The notes below the pieces were generated by a model. It did no database searches. It had not been told where the DNA came from and was given only the letters and a program-made list of their open reading frames with translations. The position numbers and the translations under genes are program-made. 39,997 bases of DNA from a virus. The stretch lies in the IMG/VR virus record IMGVR_UViG_3300033994_001464, positions 1 through 39,997 of that record; one strand, given 5' to 3'. This document shows positions 1 through 39,997 of the stretch, piece by piece (position 1 is the first letter of the stretch; each line of letters starts with the position of its first letter).

Positions 1-55
1 GATTTTGTGACGCTGTGACAGAATAATTAGACAGACACAATAAATACACATCCCA
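1..55. repeat. Left copy of 55-bp exact terminal repeat
   Basis: Bases 1-55 are identical to bases 39943-39997. A 55-base end overlap equals a common assembler k-mer size, so it most likely marks a closed circular or circularly permuted molecule rather than a biological terminal repeat. True phage terminal repeats such as those of T7 are usually longer. The genome should be read as continuous across this point. Confidence 0.95.
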
Positions 56-59
56 CACA

Positions 60-136
60 ATATTAAGATATAGCACACACACTATTATATTATATCTATA
101 TATATTTACTGTCACAATAGAGATATATATATAGAA
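60..136. other. A+T-rich tract, candidate DNA-unwinding element
   Basis: About 75 bp made almost entirely of A and T with alternating TA runs, notably 82-108 and 122-134. One TGTCAC site at 110-115 sits inside it. On the circular map it lies about 370 bp clockwise of the three DnaA boxes at 39604-39635. Such low-melting DNA next to initiator sites is typical of replication origins, but here the role is inferred from context only. Confidence 0.5.
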
Positions 137-380
137 AAGCCTGATTCTAACAGGGTTTGCGGCGTGACAAATTTTGTGACAAGGGGCGTCACCCGTGACA
201 AAGGGGGGTAGGCTTGTCTGAAAACACGCCTCCGCTATGTCCATGTTGTTTTGACATAAAAACGATTTCTAGACCCCCTGCAGGCCCAAAGCGGGCATAT
301 CGTATAGTGAAACTCGATCCCGCAATGCAGCGAACCCCTAAAACCCCAGAATTTGATTTCGGTGATGGCTTCCGGGGCTC

Positions 381-24320: not shown

Positions 24321-24914
24321 CTAAATCTGTCCTTTCAATGCGTTTTCAAATGCTTTATTTAGGTCTTTAGGTGCGTGCAAGTGGATATGTTGGTGCAGGG
24401 TTTCTGCGCCTTTATCCTTATCGAGTTGAGCCAGTTTATCCATCATAATTCCGAGCGCGATTGCCGCGTCTTTCGCGCTCATCTCATCGAGTAGGCTCAT
24501 CACACGGTCCGCTACACCGTGGCTGGCAGCGTGTAGTTTCTCCCGGATTGAGTTGCGGAAATTCACCTGCCGGAACTGACTGTCATGATCTAGCTGATGC
24601 TGTTTAATCGCGGTGATGGTGCCTTTGTCCAGCCCTGTAGCCTCGCAGATAGCTTTCTCGGCGTGACCCTTACAGTATAGGTCAATCACGTTTTTCTTAA
24701 CGTCATCCGGGATCGTTGCAAGCGCACCTTTCCCGTTTGATTTCTCAATCTCTACGTTAACATGATCCTGCACGCGGACACCAGACAACCCGGCAAGCTG
24801 GCGAGCGCGAGCTTCCTCTGACTTATATGTCCGCTTCTTAGTCTTTAGCGGATTCTTTGGGGGTTCTGCTTCCGTTTCCTTTTCTTTGCGAGGTTGTCGT
24901 TTTTTGGCTGGCAT
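24321..24914 (-). CDS. Helix-turn-helix protein, small-terminase-like candidate
   Basis: A 197-residue protein with a very basic N-terminus (about residues 1-35). A putative helix-turn-helix (about 68-105: IPDDVKKNVIDLYCKGHAEK, then ATGLDKGTITAIKQ) is followed by a long helical region and an acidic/His-containing tail. An N-terminal HTH followed by a helical oligomerisation part is the plan of small terminase subunits and also of some phage regulators. The location, at the far end of the early block and not beside terL, is unusual for a terminase. Either it is the DNA-recognition subunit encoded away from TerL, or a regulator. Confidence 0.7.
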   Translation of the reverse strand: MPAKKRQPRKEKETEAEPPKNPLKTKKRTYKSEEARARQLAGLSGVRVQDHVNVEIEKSNGKGALATIPDDVKKNVIDLYCKGHAEKAICEATGLDKGTITAIKQHQLDHDSQFRQVNFRNSIREKLHAASHGVADRVMSLLDEMSAKDAAIALGIMMDKLAQLDKDKGAETLHQHIHLHAPKDLNKAFENALKGQI

Positions 24915-32246: not shown

Positions 32247-34748
32247 ATGATTGATTTTTCTGCAGTGAACGAGCAGGCGCTTGCTTGCTCTGAGGCGATT
32301 CTTTTTGCCCTTTTTCCAGAGGGGAAGCGGGCCGGGACAGAGTTTCGTGTTGGCTCGCTTAACGGCGAAGCTGGCAAGAGTCTCTCGATTAACATTCACT
32401 CAGGAGTTTGGAAGGATTTCTCTGGTGGTGAAGGCGGGTCTGACCTTGTTTCCCTTGTGGCAGCGAAACACCAGTGCTCTCAGGCGGAAGCCGCGAAGAA
32501 ACTCATGGAATCGCTAGGGATGGCATCACCCGAGAAGGACAAGAAGCCTACAGCGAAGCATGTTATTGCAACGGAAGAGAATTTCCCGCTGGCGCATCCG
32601 AAGCTAGGTAAACCGTCCGCGTCATACATTTATCGCTCTGCCGATGGCGCTGGCATCCTCGGTTTGATTTGTCGTTTTGACACTGATGGCAAGAAAGAAA
32701 TCATGCCGCTCGCTCTGTTTGAGGAAGGCGAAAATAAGGTCTGGCGTTGGAAGGGTTTCTCAAAACCGCGCCCGCTCTATGGGCTGGACAGGCTGGCAGC
32801 TAAACCATCGGCCCCTGTTGTGTTAGTTGAAGGCGAAAAATGCGCGGATGCTCTAGGGTCCGTGCTGCAAAATGCCGTTGTCGTTACGTGGCCGGGCGGC
32901 GCTGGCGCATTCAGACAAGCCGATTGGAGTCCTCTAGCTGACAGGCGGGTTGCTGTCTGGCCTGACAACGACACTCCCGGGATTGAAGCCGCGCAAGGCA
33001 TTGCTGATATTCTGAGCAACTCAGCGGCCAGTGTTAAGATTCTGCCAACGATTGAAGGTAAACCAAAAGGATGGGATGCAGCGGACGCTATCAGCGACGG
33101 GTGGACGTATGAGGATATTTTAAACCACATTAAAAGCGAGCAGGTTGAGGAAGAGATTCCGGCCGATGAGCCTATCCAGTCTGATGATAGGGTGTGGCCG
33201 TTTCGCCTATTAGGGTATGACAAAGGCAATTACTTCTATCTCCCTAAATCTAGCAATCAGCTTGTTTCCCTTACAGCTAATGAACACCGGGAGCTACAGC
33301 TTTTGCAGCTTGCCCCCATGAATTTCTGGGAGGGATTTTTCCCTAGTGAAAAAGGCTGTGATTGGAAAGCCGCTGCTAATGCACTCATCCAACTCAGTCA
33401 CGCTAGAGGCATTTTCTCGGCGCGGAAGATTAGAGGTCGAGGCGCATGGATTGACGAAAGCCGCGTGGTTTATCACTTAGGCGATAAGCTCCGGGTGGAT
33501 GGCAACAACGTAGAAGTGCATGAGCTTGATTCCAAATTCGTATATGAGTTGAGCCAGACGATTTCTTGCCCCACTCAACCGCCTGCGCTGAATGCTGATG
33601 CCGCTAAACTCATTGAGCTTTGTGTCGAGATGCCGTGGCGCAACCCGCTATCCGCTAAATTCTTCGCCGGTTGGCTTGTGCTTGCTCCTATTGCTGGCGT
33701 CCTTAACTGGAGACCGCATATTTGGCTTAATGGCCCCTCGGGAACCGGGAAAAGCTGGATACTATACAATGTTTTACAACCTTTAATAGGTGACTCGGCT
33801 CTTAACGTGCAGTCCGTATCAACTGAGGCGGGGATTAGGCAGGTTCTAGGGACCGATTCTTTGCCTGTTATTTTCGACGAAGCTGAGTCAGAGGATAAGG
33901 CTGGCCAGCTACGTATCCAGAAAATCCTGGAGCTTGCCCGTGGCGCATCATCCGAGAGTGGATCGAGTATTGTTAAGGGTTCTGCCGGTGGCGGCGCAAT
34001 CGAGTATAGCATCAGGACTTGCTTTTGTTTTTCTTCTATCGGTGTAGGCGCAACCCAAAGAAGCGACTTGTCTCGCGTCACTCCGTTGGAACTCCAAAAG
34101 AGAGCCGACGGGAAGGCCCAATTTGAGCGCTTAAAGGCCCTCAGGAGCGTTACAACGGCTAATCCGCTATGGTGTGACTCAATCCGCTCCAGATCGTTGC
34201 ACAACGCCAATACGATCCGGCATAACGCTATCGTGTTTGCCGCTGCGGTGGCTAGCCACTTAGGCGACCAGCGTGTAGGCGACCAGCTTGGTGCGTTGCT
34301 TGCGGGTGCGTATTCGCTTACCTCCACGAACATCGCGACTCCAGAGTTTGCCGCGCAGTGGGTGGCTAATCAAGATTGGCAGAATTTTGAGTCCGTCGAT
34401 ATTGATAAGGACGAATATCGGGCTCTCTCAGTTTTGTGTGACCACTTGATAAAACTTGATGGTGACACGAATAAAACGCTTGCCGTAAGCGAGCTAATCA
34501 AACAAACAATTAACGGGTGCGAAGATTCGCACTCGGCACTAATCCGTCACGGAATAAAACTAACCCATGAATATATCGCTGTCTCAAATTCTCACTCTGC
34601 TATTGCTCGAATCTATAAAGAAACCCCATGGGCAGGGAAATGGAAAGATCAATTCTCACGTATCGACGGCGCAACCGCAGACAGAGAACGATATAACGGA
34701 ATCCAACAACGAGTCATCCGAATCCCCATCGGACTCTTCCAACATTGA
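32247..34748 (+). CDS. Primase-helicase fusion
   Basis: An 833-residue replication protein. Residues of about 50-75 include VWKDFSGGEGGSDLVSLVA, a pattern like that near the zinc-binding end of DnaG-type primases, without an obvious full CHC2 finger. The TOPRIM region has VLVEGEKCADA (about 192-202, EGEK 195-198) and WPDNDTPG (238-245), the acidic catalytic signature. The C-terminal half contains a P-loop ATPase: GPSGTGKS (496-503) and VIFDEAE (541-547), in a DUF927-type helicase domain. It would make primers and unwind the fork. No polymerase domain is seen, so the host polymerase presumably extends. Confidence 0.9.
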   Translation: MIDFSAVNEQALACSEAILFALFPEGKRAGTEFRVGSLNGEAGKSLSINIHSGVWKDFSGGEGGSDLVSLVAAKHQCSQAEAAKKLMESLGMASPEKDKKPTAKHVIATEENFPLAHPKLGKPSASYIYRSADGAGILGLICRFDTDGKKEIMPLALFEEGENKVWRWKGFSKPRPLYGLDRLAAKPSAPVVLVEGEKCADALGSVLQNAVVVTWPGGAGAFRQADWSPLADRRVAVWPDNDTPGIEAAQGIADILSNSAASVKILPTIEGKPKGWDAADAISDGWTYEDILNHIKSEQVEEEIPADEPIQSDDRVWPFRLLGYDKGNYFYLPKSSNQLVSLTANEHRELQLLQLAPMNFWEGFFPSEKGCDWKAAANALIQLSHARGIFSARKIRGRGAWIDESRVVYHLGDKLRVDGNNVEVHELDSKFVYELSQTISCPTQPPALNADAAKLIELCVEMPWRNPLSAKFFAGWLVLAPIAGVLNWRPHIWLNGPSGTGKSWILYNVLQPLIGDSALNVQSVSTEAGIRQVLGTDSLPVIFDEAESEDKAGQLRIQKILELARGASSESGSSIVKGSAGGGAIEYSIRTCFCFSSIGVGATQRSDLSRVTPLELQKRADGKAQFERLKALRSVTTANPLWCDSIRSRSLHNANTIRHNAIVFAAAVASHLGDQRVGDQLGALLAGAYSLTSTNIATPEFAAQWVANQDWQNFESVDIDKDEYRALSVLCDHLIKLDGDTNKTLAVSELIKQTINGCEDSHSALIRHGIKLTHEYIAVSNSHSAIARIYKETPWAGKWKDQFSRIDGATADRERYNGIQQRVIRIPIGLFQH

Positions 34749-35074: not shown

Positions 35075-35692
35075 ATGAACACAAATACACTAACCCCTGA
35101 GTTCTCCGAGTTTCCAAAAATGGCTCGGCTATCCCGCGAATGTATCATCACGGAGAAAATCGACGGCACTAACGCCCAGATTTATATCACGGATGACGGC
35201 CAGTTTTACACTGGTTCACGAACACGCTGGATCACACCTGAGTCTGATAACTTTGCGTTTGCCGCGTGGGCTCAGGACAACAAAGCAGAGCTTATGAAAC
35301 TAGGTCCGGGCCGTCACTTTGGCGAATGGTGGGGCCGTGGCATTCAACGAAACTATGGCCTTGAGGATAGGCGATTTAGCCTGTTTAACGTGTCTCGCTG
35401 GTGCCTGCATGGCGCTCAGCCTAAGCAAATTCCTAGCGCCGATCCTCGCGTTATTAAAATGCAGGAAGAGCTCCCGTCATGCGTGGGATTAGTTCCGGTT
35501 TTGTATCGAGGAGAGTTTCAGACGAATCTTTGTGTTGCCGCTCTGTCTGATCTACGTTACGGAGGCAGCCAAGCCGCTCCAGGATTTATGAGGCCTGAGG
35601 GTATCGTCTGTTTCCATGTTGCGGCTAACATCGGATTCAAGAAAACATTAGATGATGATGGAGTCCCGAAATCACTAGTAAAACATCAATAG
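35075..35692 (+). CDS. RNA ligase, Rnl2-type nucleotidyltransferase core
   Basis: A 205-residue ATP-dependent ligase. Motif I is EKIDGTN with the nucleotidyl-accepting lysine K28, and TGSRTRWI (46-53) follows. Motif III is HFGEWWG (81-87), IIIa FSLFN (101-105), IV PEGIV (174-178), and V FKK (188-190). This order and the length fit the Rnl2 family of RNA-sealing enzymes lacking a C-terminal domain. Such ligases repair breaks in RNA, for example in tRNA cut by host anticodon nucleases. No polynucleotide kinase-phosphatase gene was seen in the window, although that is the usual partner. The leader is A-rich with no Shine-Dalgarno. It ends just before a terminator. Confidence 0.92.
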   Translation: MNTNTLTPEFSEFPKMARLSRECIITEKIDGTNAQIYITDDGQFYTGSRTRWITPESDNFAFAAWAQDNKAELMKLGPGRHFGEWWGRGIQRNYGLEDRRFSLFNVSRWCLHGAQPKQIPSADPRVIKMQEELPSCVGLVPVLYRGEFQTNLCVAALSDLRYGGSQAAPGFMRPEGIVCFHVAANIGFKKTLDDDGVPKSLVKHQ

Positions 35693-35934: not shown

Positions 35935-36345
35935 CTAATCCGCCCCGCACTGAATAGCGATGCCTTCCCATTCTCCATCGCTAGACACGCTGTGTAGTAT
36001 GGAATCATCAAACACGGCGAAATCGTATTGACCTATATGTGCATATTCATGTCCTACTTGTAAATAAATAGGGTGTTGAGTTTTCTTCTTAGTCACCCAG
36101 AACATAGACCTAACTACCTTGGCTTCAATGAAATCCTCGTCTATATGCGGGGCAACTGATTTCCCCCGAAGATACAATGTAGTTTTGTAGTCATAAACCA
36201 AGCCACTGTTTAACTTTGGAAGATCCTTAAACGCATCTATCTCTTCTTGCGTCTTACGGAAGTGAGACATGAAATCATTTGTCGCTCTTTGGCTAATGAG
36301 GCGCTTTAATTCTTTAGTCGGTTTTAATTTGTTTTTGAAAATCAT
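35935..36345 (-). CDS. Possible Fe(II)/2-oxoglutarate-type oxygenase fold protein
   Basis: A 136-residue protein. PHIDEDF gives the H67-x-D69 pair, and SILHSV gives H118, matching the 2-His-1-carboxylate facial triad of Fe(II)/2-oxoglutarate oxygenases, with strand-rich sequence between (YLQVGHEYAHIGQYDFAVFD). The conserved arginine that binds 2-oxoglutarate is not obvious after H118, so the cofactor is uncertain, and a cupin-like fold without activity is possible. The N-terminus is a basic helix. It would act in the cytoplasm on DNA, protein or a small molecule. Substrate unknown. Confidence 0.55.
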   Translation of the reverse strand: MIFKNKLKPTKELKRLISQRATNDFMSHFRKTQEEIDAFKDLPKLNSGLVYDYKTTLYLRGKSVAPHIDEDFIEAKVVRSMFWVTKKKTQHPIYLQVGHEYAHIGQYDFAVFDDSILHSVSSDGEWEGIAIQCGAD

Positions 36346-36348
36346 AAA

Positions 36349-36516
36349 CTAATCCGTGCTATATTCTCTTATCATAGTTAATAGTTCAACGCAGGCATCG
36401 TAAGTAAGCCATTTATCATAACCCTCGGGGTCAATAAATGCAGCTTCATCAACAATCCCATAATGAGCTAGCAAGTCTGTAAATGCTTTTATTGTAAGTC
36501 TTGGTTTTTCATTCAT
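36349..36516 (-). CDS. Short protein, 55 residues
   Basis: The protein (start MNEKPRLTIKAFTDLLAHYG) is acidic and helical, with a single loop DPEGYDKW. Its ATG overlaps the TGA of the next upstream gene in an ATGA junction, and its stop precedes the next gene by 3 bp in the recurring TAG-TTT-ATG pattern. Both junctions match those of its neighbours, which is the main support. No family recognised. Confidence 0.62.
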   Translation of the reverse strand: MNEKPRLTIKAFTDLLAHYGIVDEAAFIDPEGYDKWLTYDACVELLTMIREYSTD

Positions 36517-36782
36517 AAACTAATTGCTACGTATTCTTCTGGGCCTTCCTCAGCTACAACCCATTTAGCTGTCATAACATCAGAGTGCTTATATTTATTT
36601 AGCCAGTTAAGACAAAACTCCTCTAGAGCTTCATCAACTGCTTTACTGTAATCCATTTTTGTAAACCTATCAGTAATTGCAACCCCGGAAACCCCCTGGC
36701 ATTGAGCCAGAGCCCATACTTGGTGCTCTTTTTTGTAGAGGTCTATCTTCACAACAAATCCTCCGTAATGTTTGATATTCAT
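36513..36782 (-). CDS. Small unknown protein
   Basis: An 89-residue alpha/beta protein with an N-terminal strand (GGFVVKIDLYKKE), a helix containing DYSKAVDEALEEF, and a C-terminal strand. Start and stop are ATGA-coupled on both sides (36779-36782 and 36513-36516). No metal-binding or membrane motif. Common in small phage host-takeover operons, function unknown. Confidence 0.68.
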   Translation of the reverse strand: MNIKHYGGFVVKIDLYKKEHQVWALAQCQGVSGVAITDRFTKMDYSKAVDEALEEFCLNWLNKYKHSDVMTAKWVVAEEGPEEYVAISL

Positions 36783-37183
36783 AGCCAGTCTCCTCTTAGT
36801 TTTTCATCTCCTGATTTCATTTCAAATCCGTGTGCGTAGAATCCATTATGGTCATTCCAAAGCATAAGGAATATCTCTTCCTTGTCTTTAGTTAACCTAA
36901 ATATAGCAGCGCTCCCGTGTGCATATAAATCAGCCTCAGTTTTTAATACAGTTTCACTAGACACATCCCAATCAGTAACAGGGAATCTTTGCTCAAAATA
37001 AGCAGCGTCAAATTGATACCCTGCCGGGTCAATCCCGTTTTCTCCTTCTTTCAATACTGATGGAAACTCTCGTGTTAAACACCATCCAAAGCTCTCGCAG
37101 CACAATTTCTCATATTCAAAACCGACAAACACGTTGTTATCATCTACAAAATTAACTTTTCCGTCTCTTTCAAATATTTTCAT
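36779..37183 (-). CDS. Unknown protein at the head of the middle leftward operon
   Basis: A 134-residue acidic alpha/beta protein with an N-terminal strand pair (FERDGKVNFVDDNNVFVGFE), then YEKLCCESFGWCLT with three cysteines. The CC-ESFG-C pattern is reminiscent of a family of small phage/bacterial proteins of unknown function (DUF7448-like). A C-terminal Asn/His/Gly loop follows. It is the first gene after the repeat-rich intergenic region, so transcription of the operon to 35749 should begin just upstream (37184-37260). Confidence 0.65.
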   Translation of the reverse strand: MKIFERDGKVNFVDDNNVFVGFEYEKLCCESFGWCLTREFPSVLKEGENGIDPAGYQFDAAYFEQRFPVTDWDVSSETVLKTEADLYAHGSAAIFRLTKDKEEIFLMLWNDHNGFYAHGFEMKSGDEKLRGDWL

Positions 37184-37278: not shown

Positions 37279-37318
37279 GCCGCCGGTACAAGCGCCTCGA
37301 TTATGCGCCACCGCTTGT

Positions 37319-37374
37319 TTATACACACGGTTGTTTATACACGCGTATGTTTAACACACGGTTGTTTATACAAA
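37319..37374. other. DnaA-box cluster with 19-bp direct repeats
   Basis: TTATACACA at 37319-37327 matches the DnaA box consensus TTATNCACA exactly. Near matches lie at 37335-37343 (TTATACACG) and 37366-37374 (TTATACAAA). The 19-mer ACACACGGTTGTTTATACA occurs twice, at 37323-37341 and 37354-37372, 31 bp apart (about three helical turns). This is a candidate initiator-binding array. It may be a second origin or a titration/regulatory site. Confidence 0.6.
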
Positions 37375-37623
37375 GATTTTTATTGCTTTGATTTGTTTTT
37401 GCGTGCTAAATTTGGCCGTCGAAGTGGCGTTTTTTGTTTGGCGTTTGCGTGTTACGGGTGCGGGTGCCGATTAAAGCGGGTCCAGCGGTCCGGCCTCCTA
37501 CCCTCGGCGGAGTCGATAGGCCGCCACGCCCCACACTGCTAGAGCGTGAATTGCCCACACAAATACGGGGCCGTAGCGATTAGCAATTCGGAGCAACTCC
37601 GGGGGAGCGTGAAATGTGCGCAT

Positions 37624-39356: not shown

Positions 39357-39444
39357 GCGCGAATATTTCCCCAAAACTAGCAGTAACGCTAGCTTTTTCT
39401 TCTCGGTTCATCTATTTAGTGCAAAATATGTCTTTTCAGGCTTC

Positions 39445-39495
39445 GATTTGTCCAGTTTAGGACATTTCAGAGTCGGATTTGTCCAGTTTAGGACA
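39445..39495. promoter_or_regulatory. Two 20-bp repeats with TGTCC-N6-GGACA symmetry
   Basis: GATTTGTCCAGTTTAGGACA occurs at 39445-39464 and 39476-39495, exactly 31 bp apart. Each contains the inverted repeat TGTCC-AGTTTA-GGACA, and they lie 89 bp upstream of the leftward operon start at 39356. Paired symmetrical sites at a helical-turn multiple are typical of operators for a dimeric repressor or ParB-like protein. No cognate gene is identified. Confidence 0.65.
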
Positions 39496-39587
39496 GATTT
39501 GACTGAAATGATGCTGAAAATGCGTTCCAGCGAGCGTGTCCACTCCTTAATGAGACTCAGCCTCAATAAGCCTACACAGTTACCGCT

Positions 39588-39665
39588 TGTTTAAACAACT
39601 GCTTGTGAATAACTTTGTGAATAACTTGTGAATAACTATTAGCCTCACCTAAGTTTGTTTAAACA
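39588..39665. other. DnaA-box cluster between TGTTTAAACA palindromes, candidate origin
   Basis: TGTGAATAA, the complement of DnaA box TTATTCACA, occurs at 39604-39612, 39616-39624 and 39627-39635, spaced 12 and 11 bp. The palindrome TGTTTAAACA flanks them at 39589-39598 and 39656-39665. An A+T tract and GTGAC repeats follow through the junction. This is the strongest replication-origin candidate in the genome. Confidence 0.7.
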
Positions 39666-39942
39666 TCCGTTCTGATACTATTTTTGCATTCACAGACACG
39701 GTGGGTTGCCTTCACGGAATGTAGACTGATCGAGTGTAGATTAAACGAATGCATTTTAAGACATAGCAGACAGGGGGAGGGGGTCGAGGCGCGCACGGCG
39801 GACGAAGAGCCAACGCATCACACCCCCCGGAATTTTATTTTGCAAATGGGCTTCCCCCTTCGACTGTCACTCTGTCTCGACCGTGCCTCGCAAATGTCAC
39901 CGCGTAAGTGCCTGATTTGCAGAGACTTACGACTCAAAACCC
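39666..39942. other. Gene-free region between DnaA boxes and contig end
   Basis: About 280 bp without a convincing gene. It holds a G-rich run near 39770-39784 (GGGGGAGGGGG), a C-rich run near 39822-39830, and two TGTCAC sites at 39865-39870 and 39895-39900. It continues directly into bases 1-616, so the whole gap on the circle is about 1.2 kb. A rightward open frame from 39684 is not credible. Confidence 0.7.
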
Positions 39943-39997
39943 GATTTTGTGACGCTGTGACAGAATAATTAGACAGACACAATAAATACACATCCCA
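39943..39997. repeat. Right copy of 55-bp exact terminal repeat
   Basis: This is the second copy of bases 1-55, so the non-redundant genome is 39,942 bp. The repeat lies inside the gene-free region between the leftward gene starting at 39356 and the rightward gene starting at 617. The arbitrary cut therefore splits a regulatory region, not a gene. Confidence 0.95.

Follow-up and report, generated by a model that had tools for sequence, protein, structure and literature searches.

The intergenic region across the contig ends

The viral record IMGVR_UViG_3300033994_001464 was analyzed over its full length of 39,997 bp (the window), with attention to a putative replication origin in the intergenic region at the contig ends, where an A+T tract lies between short GTGACA repeats and beside an array of DnaA boxes (Table 1). 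The phage contig is circular with a unit of 39,942 bp: 55 bp are common to both ends, and the junction is read through by two other contigs, which are 99.97% and 99.95% identical. Through this end overlap, the left GTGAC repeats at 7-20 recur at 39948-39961. The intergenic region consists of 39375-39942 plus 1-616, contains no convincing gene and is bounded by a leftward gene starting at 39374 and a rightward gene starting at 617. Its measured length of 1,184 bp, together with the junction evidence, bears out the first-pass annotation, made from the sequence alone, which had described an array spanning the circular junction in a gene-free region of about 1.2 kb.

Table 1. Features of the putative origin, the neighboring arrays and the proposed initiator gene (positions in the window; G and L numbers refer to compared genomes and contigs).
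Feature	Position	Strand	Remark
Outer left TGTCAC repeats	39865-39870, 39895-39900	-	
ACTTACGAC element	39925-39933	+	Variant resembling GCACTTACRAYG seen by eye next to the A+T tract of G004, G020 and G021
Left GTGAC repeats adjoining the A+T tract (GTGACG 7-12, GTGACA 15-20)	7-20	+	
A+T tract, probable DNA-unwinding element	59-138	.	Stability minimum of the circular genome (80 bp, z -4.0)
TGTCAC repeat within this tract	110-115	-	Same place in G004, L007 and L004
Right GTGACA repeats (164-169, 176-181, 195-200), also GTCAC 188-192	164-200	+	
Palindrome TTGTTTAAACAA, first unit of the array	39587-39598	.	First unit and 16-bp step same in G004 and L007
Three exact DnaA boxes TTATTCACA	39604-39612, 39616-39624, 39627-39635	-	Spaced at 12 and 11 bp; unchanged in L002 and L003
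TTGTTTAAACA, last unit of the array	39655-39665	+	
Second array in this iteron class, with four TTGTTTATACACnCGG-type units at 16, 16 and 15 bp	37315-37377	+	
Primase-helicase, 833 aa, proposed initiator	32247-34748	+	PHROG DNA primase

The A+T tract, which the first-pass annotation had placed at 60-136, coincides with the stability minimum of the whole genome, and the GTGAC/GTCAC repeat family noticed there was recovered with eight GTGAC-core sites in 293 bp, where 0.21 are expected. Three GTGACA copies lie on each of the two sides of the tract (log10P -7.9). GGCGTGACAAANTTTGTGACA was found only in the phage group of the window.

The nearest divergent relative, G004, has a circular and syntenic genome of 41.3 kb and a primase-helicase that is 62% identical. 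At this place it carries 10 of the 27 GTGACA copies of its genome (log10P -15), around a tract that is only the seventh least stable at 80 bp and has a flank score of -13.1. The tract is syntenic in G004, L004, L007 and L008, and in the latter three the repeats were seen with it. The GTGACA/A+T element is thus conserved, and it lies 366 bp from the DnaA boxes.

The cumulative GC skew, proposed as a check by the first-pass annotation, has its minimum at 347, which fits an origin, but the skew tracks gene orientation in this genome and for this reason was not used alone as proof. The skew at the third codon position of the rightward genes (0.135 at 0.6-20 kb versus 0.002 at 30-36 kb) is only suggestive as a sign of an origin.

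The primase-helicase and the proposed origin design of its relatives

The first-pass annotation had stated that the phage has a primase-helicase but no polymerase. The protein combines a DnaG-type TOPRIM primase (residues about 106-298) with an AAA+ helicase (about 308-832), and a gene for a family-A DNA polymerase (Pol A) was not found. Relatives of the primase were detected by searching with a two-sequence alignment that included the G004 primase-helicase, and none by a single-sequence search. The AlphaFold models have a predicted local distance difference test score (pLDDT) of 84, and of 87 for the helicase half modelled alone. The TOPRIM primase fold matches T7 gp4 and DnaG with Z scores of 14-15. 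The helicase half matches Cch of the staphylococcal cassette chromosome mec (SCCmec; 5dgk) with a Z score of 14.2 over 418 of 527 residues, and PriRep of the Staphylococcus aureus pathogenicity island (SaPI) SaPI5 (7ola) with a Z score of 13.5. Helicases related to it are called rep in SaPIs and described as self-loading, according to the title of a work referenced by PMC10061031. Judging from the models, the phage helicase is best read as one of the self-loading initiator type. As other initiators, a phage-encoded DnaA and a Rep_3 protein were considered and rejected, no such gene being found; Rep_3 (PF01051), which marks one class of plasmid origins, gave no match in the window at E <= 1.

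In the primase relatives, whole genomes were examined for hexamers of any sequence that recur to the left and right of the tract of lowest stability. Such hexamers flank the single least stable tract in G020 and G021 (both TCTGCA), G022 (GTAACA), G025 (GTAAGA) and G026 (GCTTAC), with a weaker match in G023 (-6.7), so that the hexamer sequence varies between lineages. In a blind scan treating all loci on equal terms (cut-off log10P <= -10), the design was detected in 7 of 14 full-length primase loci and in 16 of 65 partial-primase loci, which match the primase half, compared with 0 of 73 terminase-only loci and 2 of 113 DnaA-array loci. Fisher tests against the terminase-only loci resulted in P values of 6e-7 (full-length) and 5e-8 (full-length plus partial), which are nominal, given the unequal lengths of the loci and the non-independence of the relatives. 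Some of the partial-primase contigs may be prophages or satellites.

The position of the element, a criterion independent of the scan, was determined for the 23 blind-scan elements and five more passing a looser scan. Of these 28, 22 are found at -14 to 355 bp relative to the primase stop codon; the element is located elsewhere in the window, G021, L232, L239 and G026. The origins of phage-inducible chromosomal islands (PICIs) are likewise located 3′ of the initiator gene, and in 2018 the iteron/AT/iteron design was known to the authors from no other bacterial replicon (PMC6092414). Further likenesses to the PICI/SaPI origin with Pri-Rep (PMC6092414; 7ola, 7om0, 7pds, 5dgk) are the lineage-specific iterons and the fusion of a primase to an AAA+ helicase. 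Differences are that the elements described here occur in full-size tailed phages, which encode terminase, portal and capsid proteins of their own, that the primase of the window is of the DnaG/TOPRIM type, and that the window element lies about 5.1 kb from the gene. Among the virion genes of the window are a major head protein (PHROG match) as well as terminase-sized and structural-type genes with many phage relatives, and the phage is therefore not a satellite lacking a full virion gene set. Because of its position and its own structural genes, the element is said to work like a PICI origin and is not classed as a PICI or a member of that group.

From the repeats, the A+T minimum, their conservation, the association with the primase-helicase and the protein folds, we infer with a probability of about 0.7 that 39860-205, read across the junction, is the replication origin of the phage, of PICI-like iteron/AT-rich/iteron design and fired by its own primase-helicase. 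The primase-helicase would recognize the GTGACA repeats that enclose the 80-bp tract, melt the tract and load itself as a hexamer; its fused DnaG-type primase would then make primers, to be extended by the host polymerase III. The first-pass annotation had called the region origin-like and had considered DnaA-type initiation plausible. The first part is supported by the stability minimum, the flanking iterons, the skew minimum, the conservation in relatives and the recurrence of the architecture in many phages carrying the same primase-helicase. The second part did not hold, as described below.

Several observations weigh against the proposed origin and initiator. The window element is not directly 3′ of the primase gene, its flank score is weaker than those in relatives, and no match to the design was obtained in G024, G027, L240, L255 and most partial primase relatives. 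In the fold search, MCM chains (Z about 13) and poxvirus D5 helicases are nearly tied with SaPI and Cch proteins, and the Cch match as a whole has a large root-mean-square deviation (11.7), so that the fold singles out no one family; a Pfam DUF927 or D5_N match to the protein was not found. Finally, the repeats lie beside the terminase gene and could also serve packaging.

If the proposed origin is correct, the origin would be predictable from sequence in uncultured phages, as the weakest tract enclosed by a repeated hexamer and located 3′ of the primase gene, and each lineage would offer a testable initiator-iteron pair. It would also link the replication of free-living phages with that of satellites. 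We slightly favor the broader view that many full-size tailed phages with a fusion of a TOPRIM primase and an initiator-type AAA+ helicase replicate from PICI-type origins and could exchange this replication module with satellites.

The DnaA boxes and alternative explanations

The three perfect DnaA boxes of the first-pass annotation are exact copies of TTATTCACA, all on the minus strand between 39604 and 39635, and the flanking copies of TGTTTAAACA are present at 39588-39597 and 39656-39665. Genome-wide, four exact TTATNCACA sites were counted versus 1.25 expected, and none of 300 first-order simulated genomes contained two boxes within 20 bp or three within 40 bp. All four fall in two arrays, the only other exact box being located at 37319-37327 in the second array (37315-37377).

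In the window, the array starts with TTGTTTAAACA, followed after a 16-bp step by three TTGTGAATAAC units at 11-12 bp and by a last TTGTTTAAACA 29 bp on. At the same place in G004, TTGTTTAAACA and a 16-bp step are followed by four TTGTGTARCA units spaced at 15 bp and, 26 bp further, by a final unit, and the L007 array has a G004-like layout with two TTGTTTAAACA units inside. Both arrays carry TTGTGTAACA units in place of the DnaA boxes. Since this layout recurs with other units, the boxes make up the middle of an orthologous iteron array, to which both flanking TGTTTAAACA copies also belong as units. The trio thus probably belongs to a second, neighboring repeat array of the TTGTKTAAACA family; in the lineage of the window, the units in the middle of this array have the sequence of a DnaA box. 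The idea of TTGTGTAACA arrays as a widespread DnaA-like site was rejected, as outside the phage group only coding repeats match.

The two exact DnaA boxes of G004 both fall in its structural-gene region. A box cluster was detected in none of the terminase relatives (n = 80) except two near-identical contigs, paired boxes in 0 of 15 phages carrying this kind of primase-helicase, and a box array neither in G004 and L007 nor in these 15. The first-pass annotation had itself named a lack of conservation in close relatives as a refuting test, and this result counts against a dependence on host DnaA, as do the other iteron at the place of the boxes in the orthologous array, the 366 bp that separate the last box from the A+T tract, and the self-loading initiator fold of the phage helicase. 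The boxes are real, but are best read as a feature of one phage, accessory at most and not the core of the site. Host DnaA may bind the trio in an accessory function that the core mechanism does not require. If the proposed origin is correct, the case also cautions against inferring DnaA-dependent replication from DnaA boxes in phage genomes.

Tandem TTATNCACA arrays are widespread in non-coding regions of phages and largely unannotated (IMG/VR L082-L201; MK685668, NC_092900, MW394389), and they occur even in phages with their own replisome. In IMG/VR, triples with 2-3 bp spacers were found in at least 120 stretches versus one for a reversed-letter control, so that such an array is rarely a chance iteron. 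Among the matches listed, 37 of 115 distinct arrays (about a third) have mixed middle bases and 73 of 115 have AG before the first box. The AG and the spacers of the window array fit this class, and given the abundance of such triples host DnaA may bind here as well. In isolated phages, too, the arrays are present and mostly unannotated, e.g., in the terminal regions of T7-like and T5-like phages; the features listed for the T5 injection stop signal include DnaA boxes (PMC13250531). L168, a phage contig unrelated to the window, combines over ten GTGACA/TGTCAC repeats with a run of TTATCCACA boxes in about 400 bp (700-1250), which from its sequence reads as a composite iteron plus DnaA-box region.

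A composite origin as in P1, RK2 and F, in which the phage initiator would bind the GTGACA iterons and the DnaA boxes would recruit host DnaA in an accessory or required role, is compatible with the PICI-like origin and an extension of it. We consider it a tentative possibility, less probable than not. The excess of the triples over their control, the fit of the AG and the spacers, the joint occurrence in L168 and the confinement of all exact boxes to two arrays favor it. Close relatives carry the same iteron/AT element without boxes, however, the boxes stand as units in an orthologous array of another iteron, and their identity is what the duplication of one unit would produce. The plasmid origins P1 oriR, RK2 oriV and F ori2 also combine iterons, an A+T tract and DnaA boxes in one region (PMC4980987, PMC5043065), whereas the window has no Rep_3 initiator gene, short hexamers on both sides of the tract and boxes set apart from it. 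An origin like bacterial oriC, where host DnaA on the trio would melt the A+T tract and load host DnaB, is very improbable. It agrees with the cluster of three exact boxes, the A+T tract in the same intergenic region and the lack of Pol A, but in the window the boxes do not adjoin the tract, the conserved repeats of the tract are GTGACA, the boxes are absent in relatives and the phage has its own self-loading-type AAA+ helicase.

The region could also be unrelated to replication. The TTGTKTAAACA arrays would then be operators of a phage regulator before leftward operons, and the GTGACA/A+T element a packaging site by the terminase gene, the whole forming a regulatory or packaging/DNA-entry region. 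Each array indeed precedes a leftward gene (by 132 and 229 bp), the terminase gene is close to the element, and the T7-like terminal regions and the T5 signal share tandem TTATNCACA boxes in non-coding phage DNA, from which the window differs by having its boxes inside the genome of a circular contig. This explanation is unlikely, since the element tracks the primase-helicase (23 of 79 relatives) and not the terminase (0 of 73), and is usually located directly 3′ of the primase gene.

Further features of the genome

Searches of annotated phage DNA with the whole window gave no match, and no RNA families or tRNAs were found in it. A promoter scan revealed a single weak sigma70-like site without any excess. 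This leftward site (39454-39425) is overlapped by the dyad GATTTGTCCAGTTTAGGACA, which occurs twice, at 39445-39464 and 39476-39495, 31 bp apart. Before the same operon, G004 has another dyad pair of the GAACGnCGTTC type; the repressor operator therefore seems to have been exchanged. A 197-aa protein encoded at 24324-24914 shows a weak match to the terminase small subunit family, and its gene is on the opposite strand to, and far from, the large subunit gene. The terminase of a contig binned as Pedosphaera (Verrucomicrobiota; L227) is 66% identical, a host hint that is possibly a binning error and too weak for naming a host.

A low-complexity tract of alternating GTGTGCGCGT is located at 383-535, between the origin region and the terminase gene, and a similar tract occurs in G021 (L319, 18810-18977), 2 kb from the origin-like element of that genome. 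The RNA ligase gene (35075-35692) is 84% identical in G004 but located elsewhere in its genome, and 35948-36805 is 92.7% identical in G004 versus about 65-77% for most other matches, which suggests moved or recently exchanged genes.
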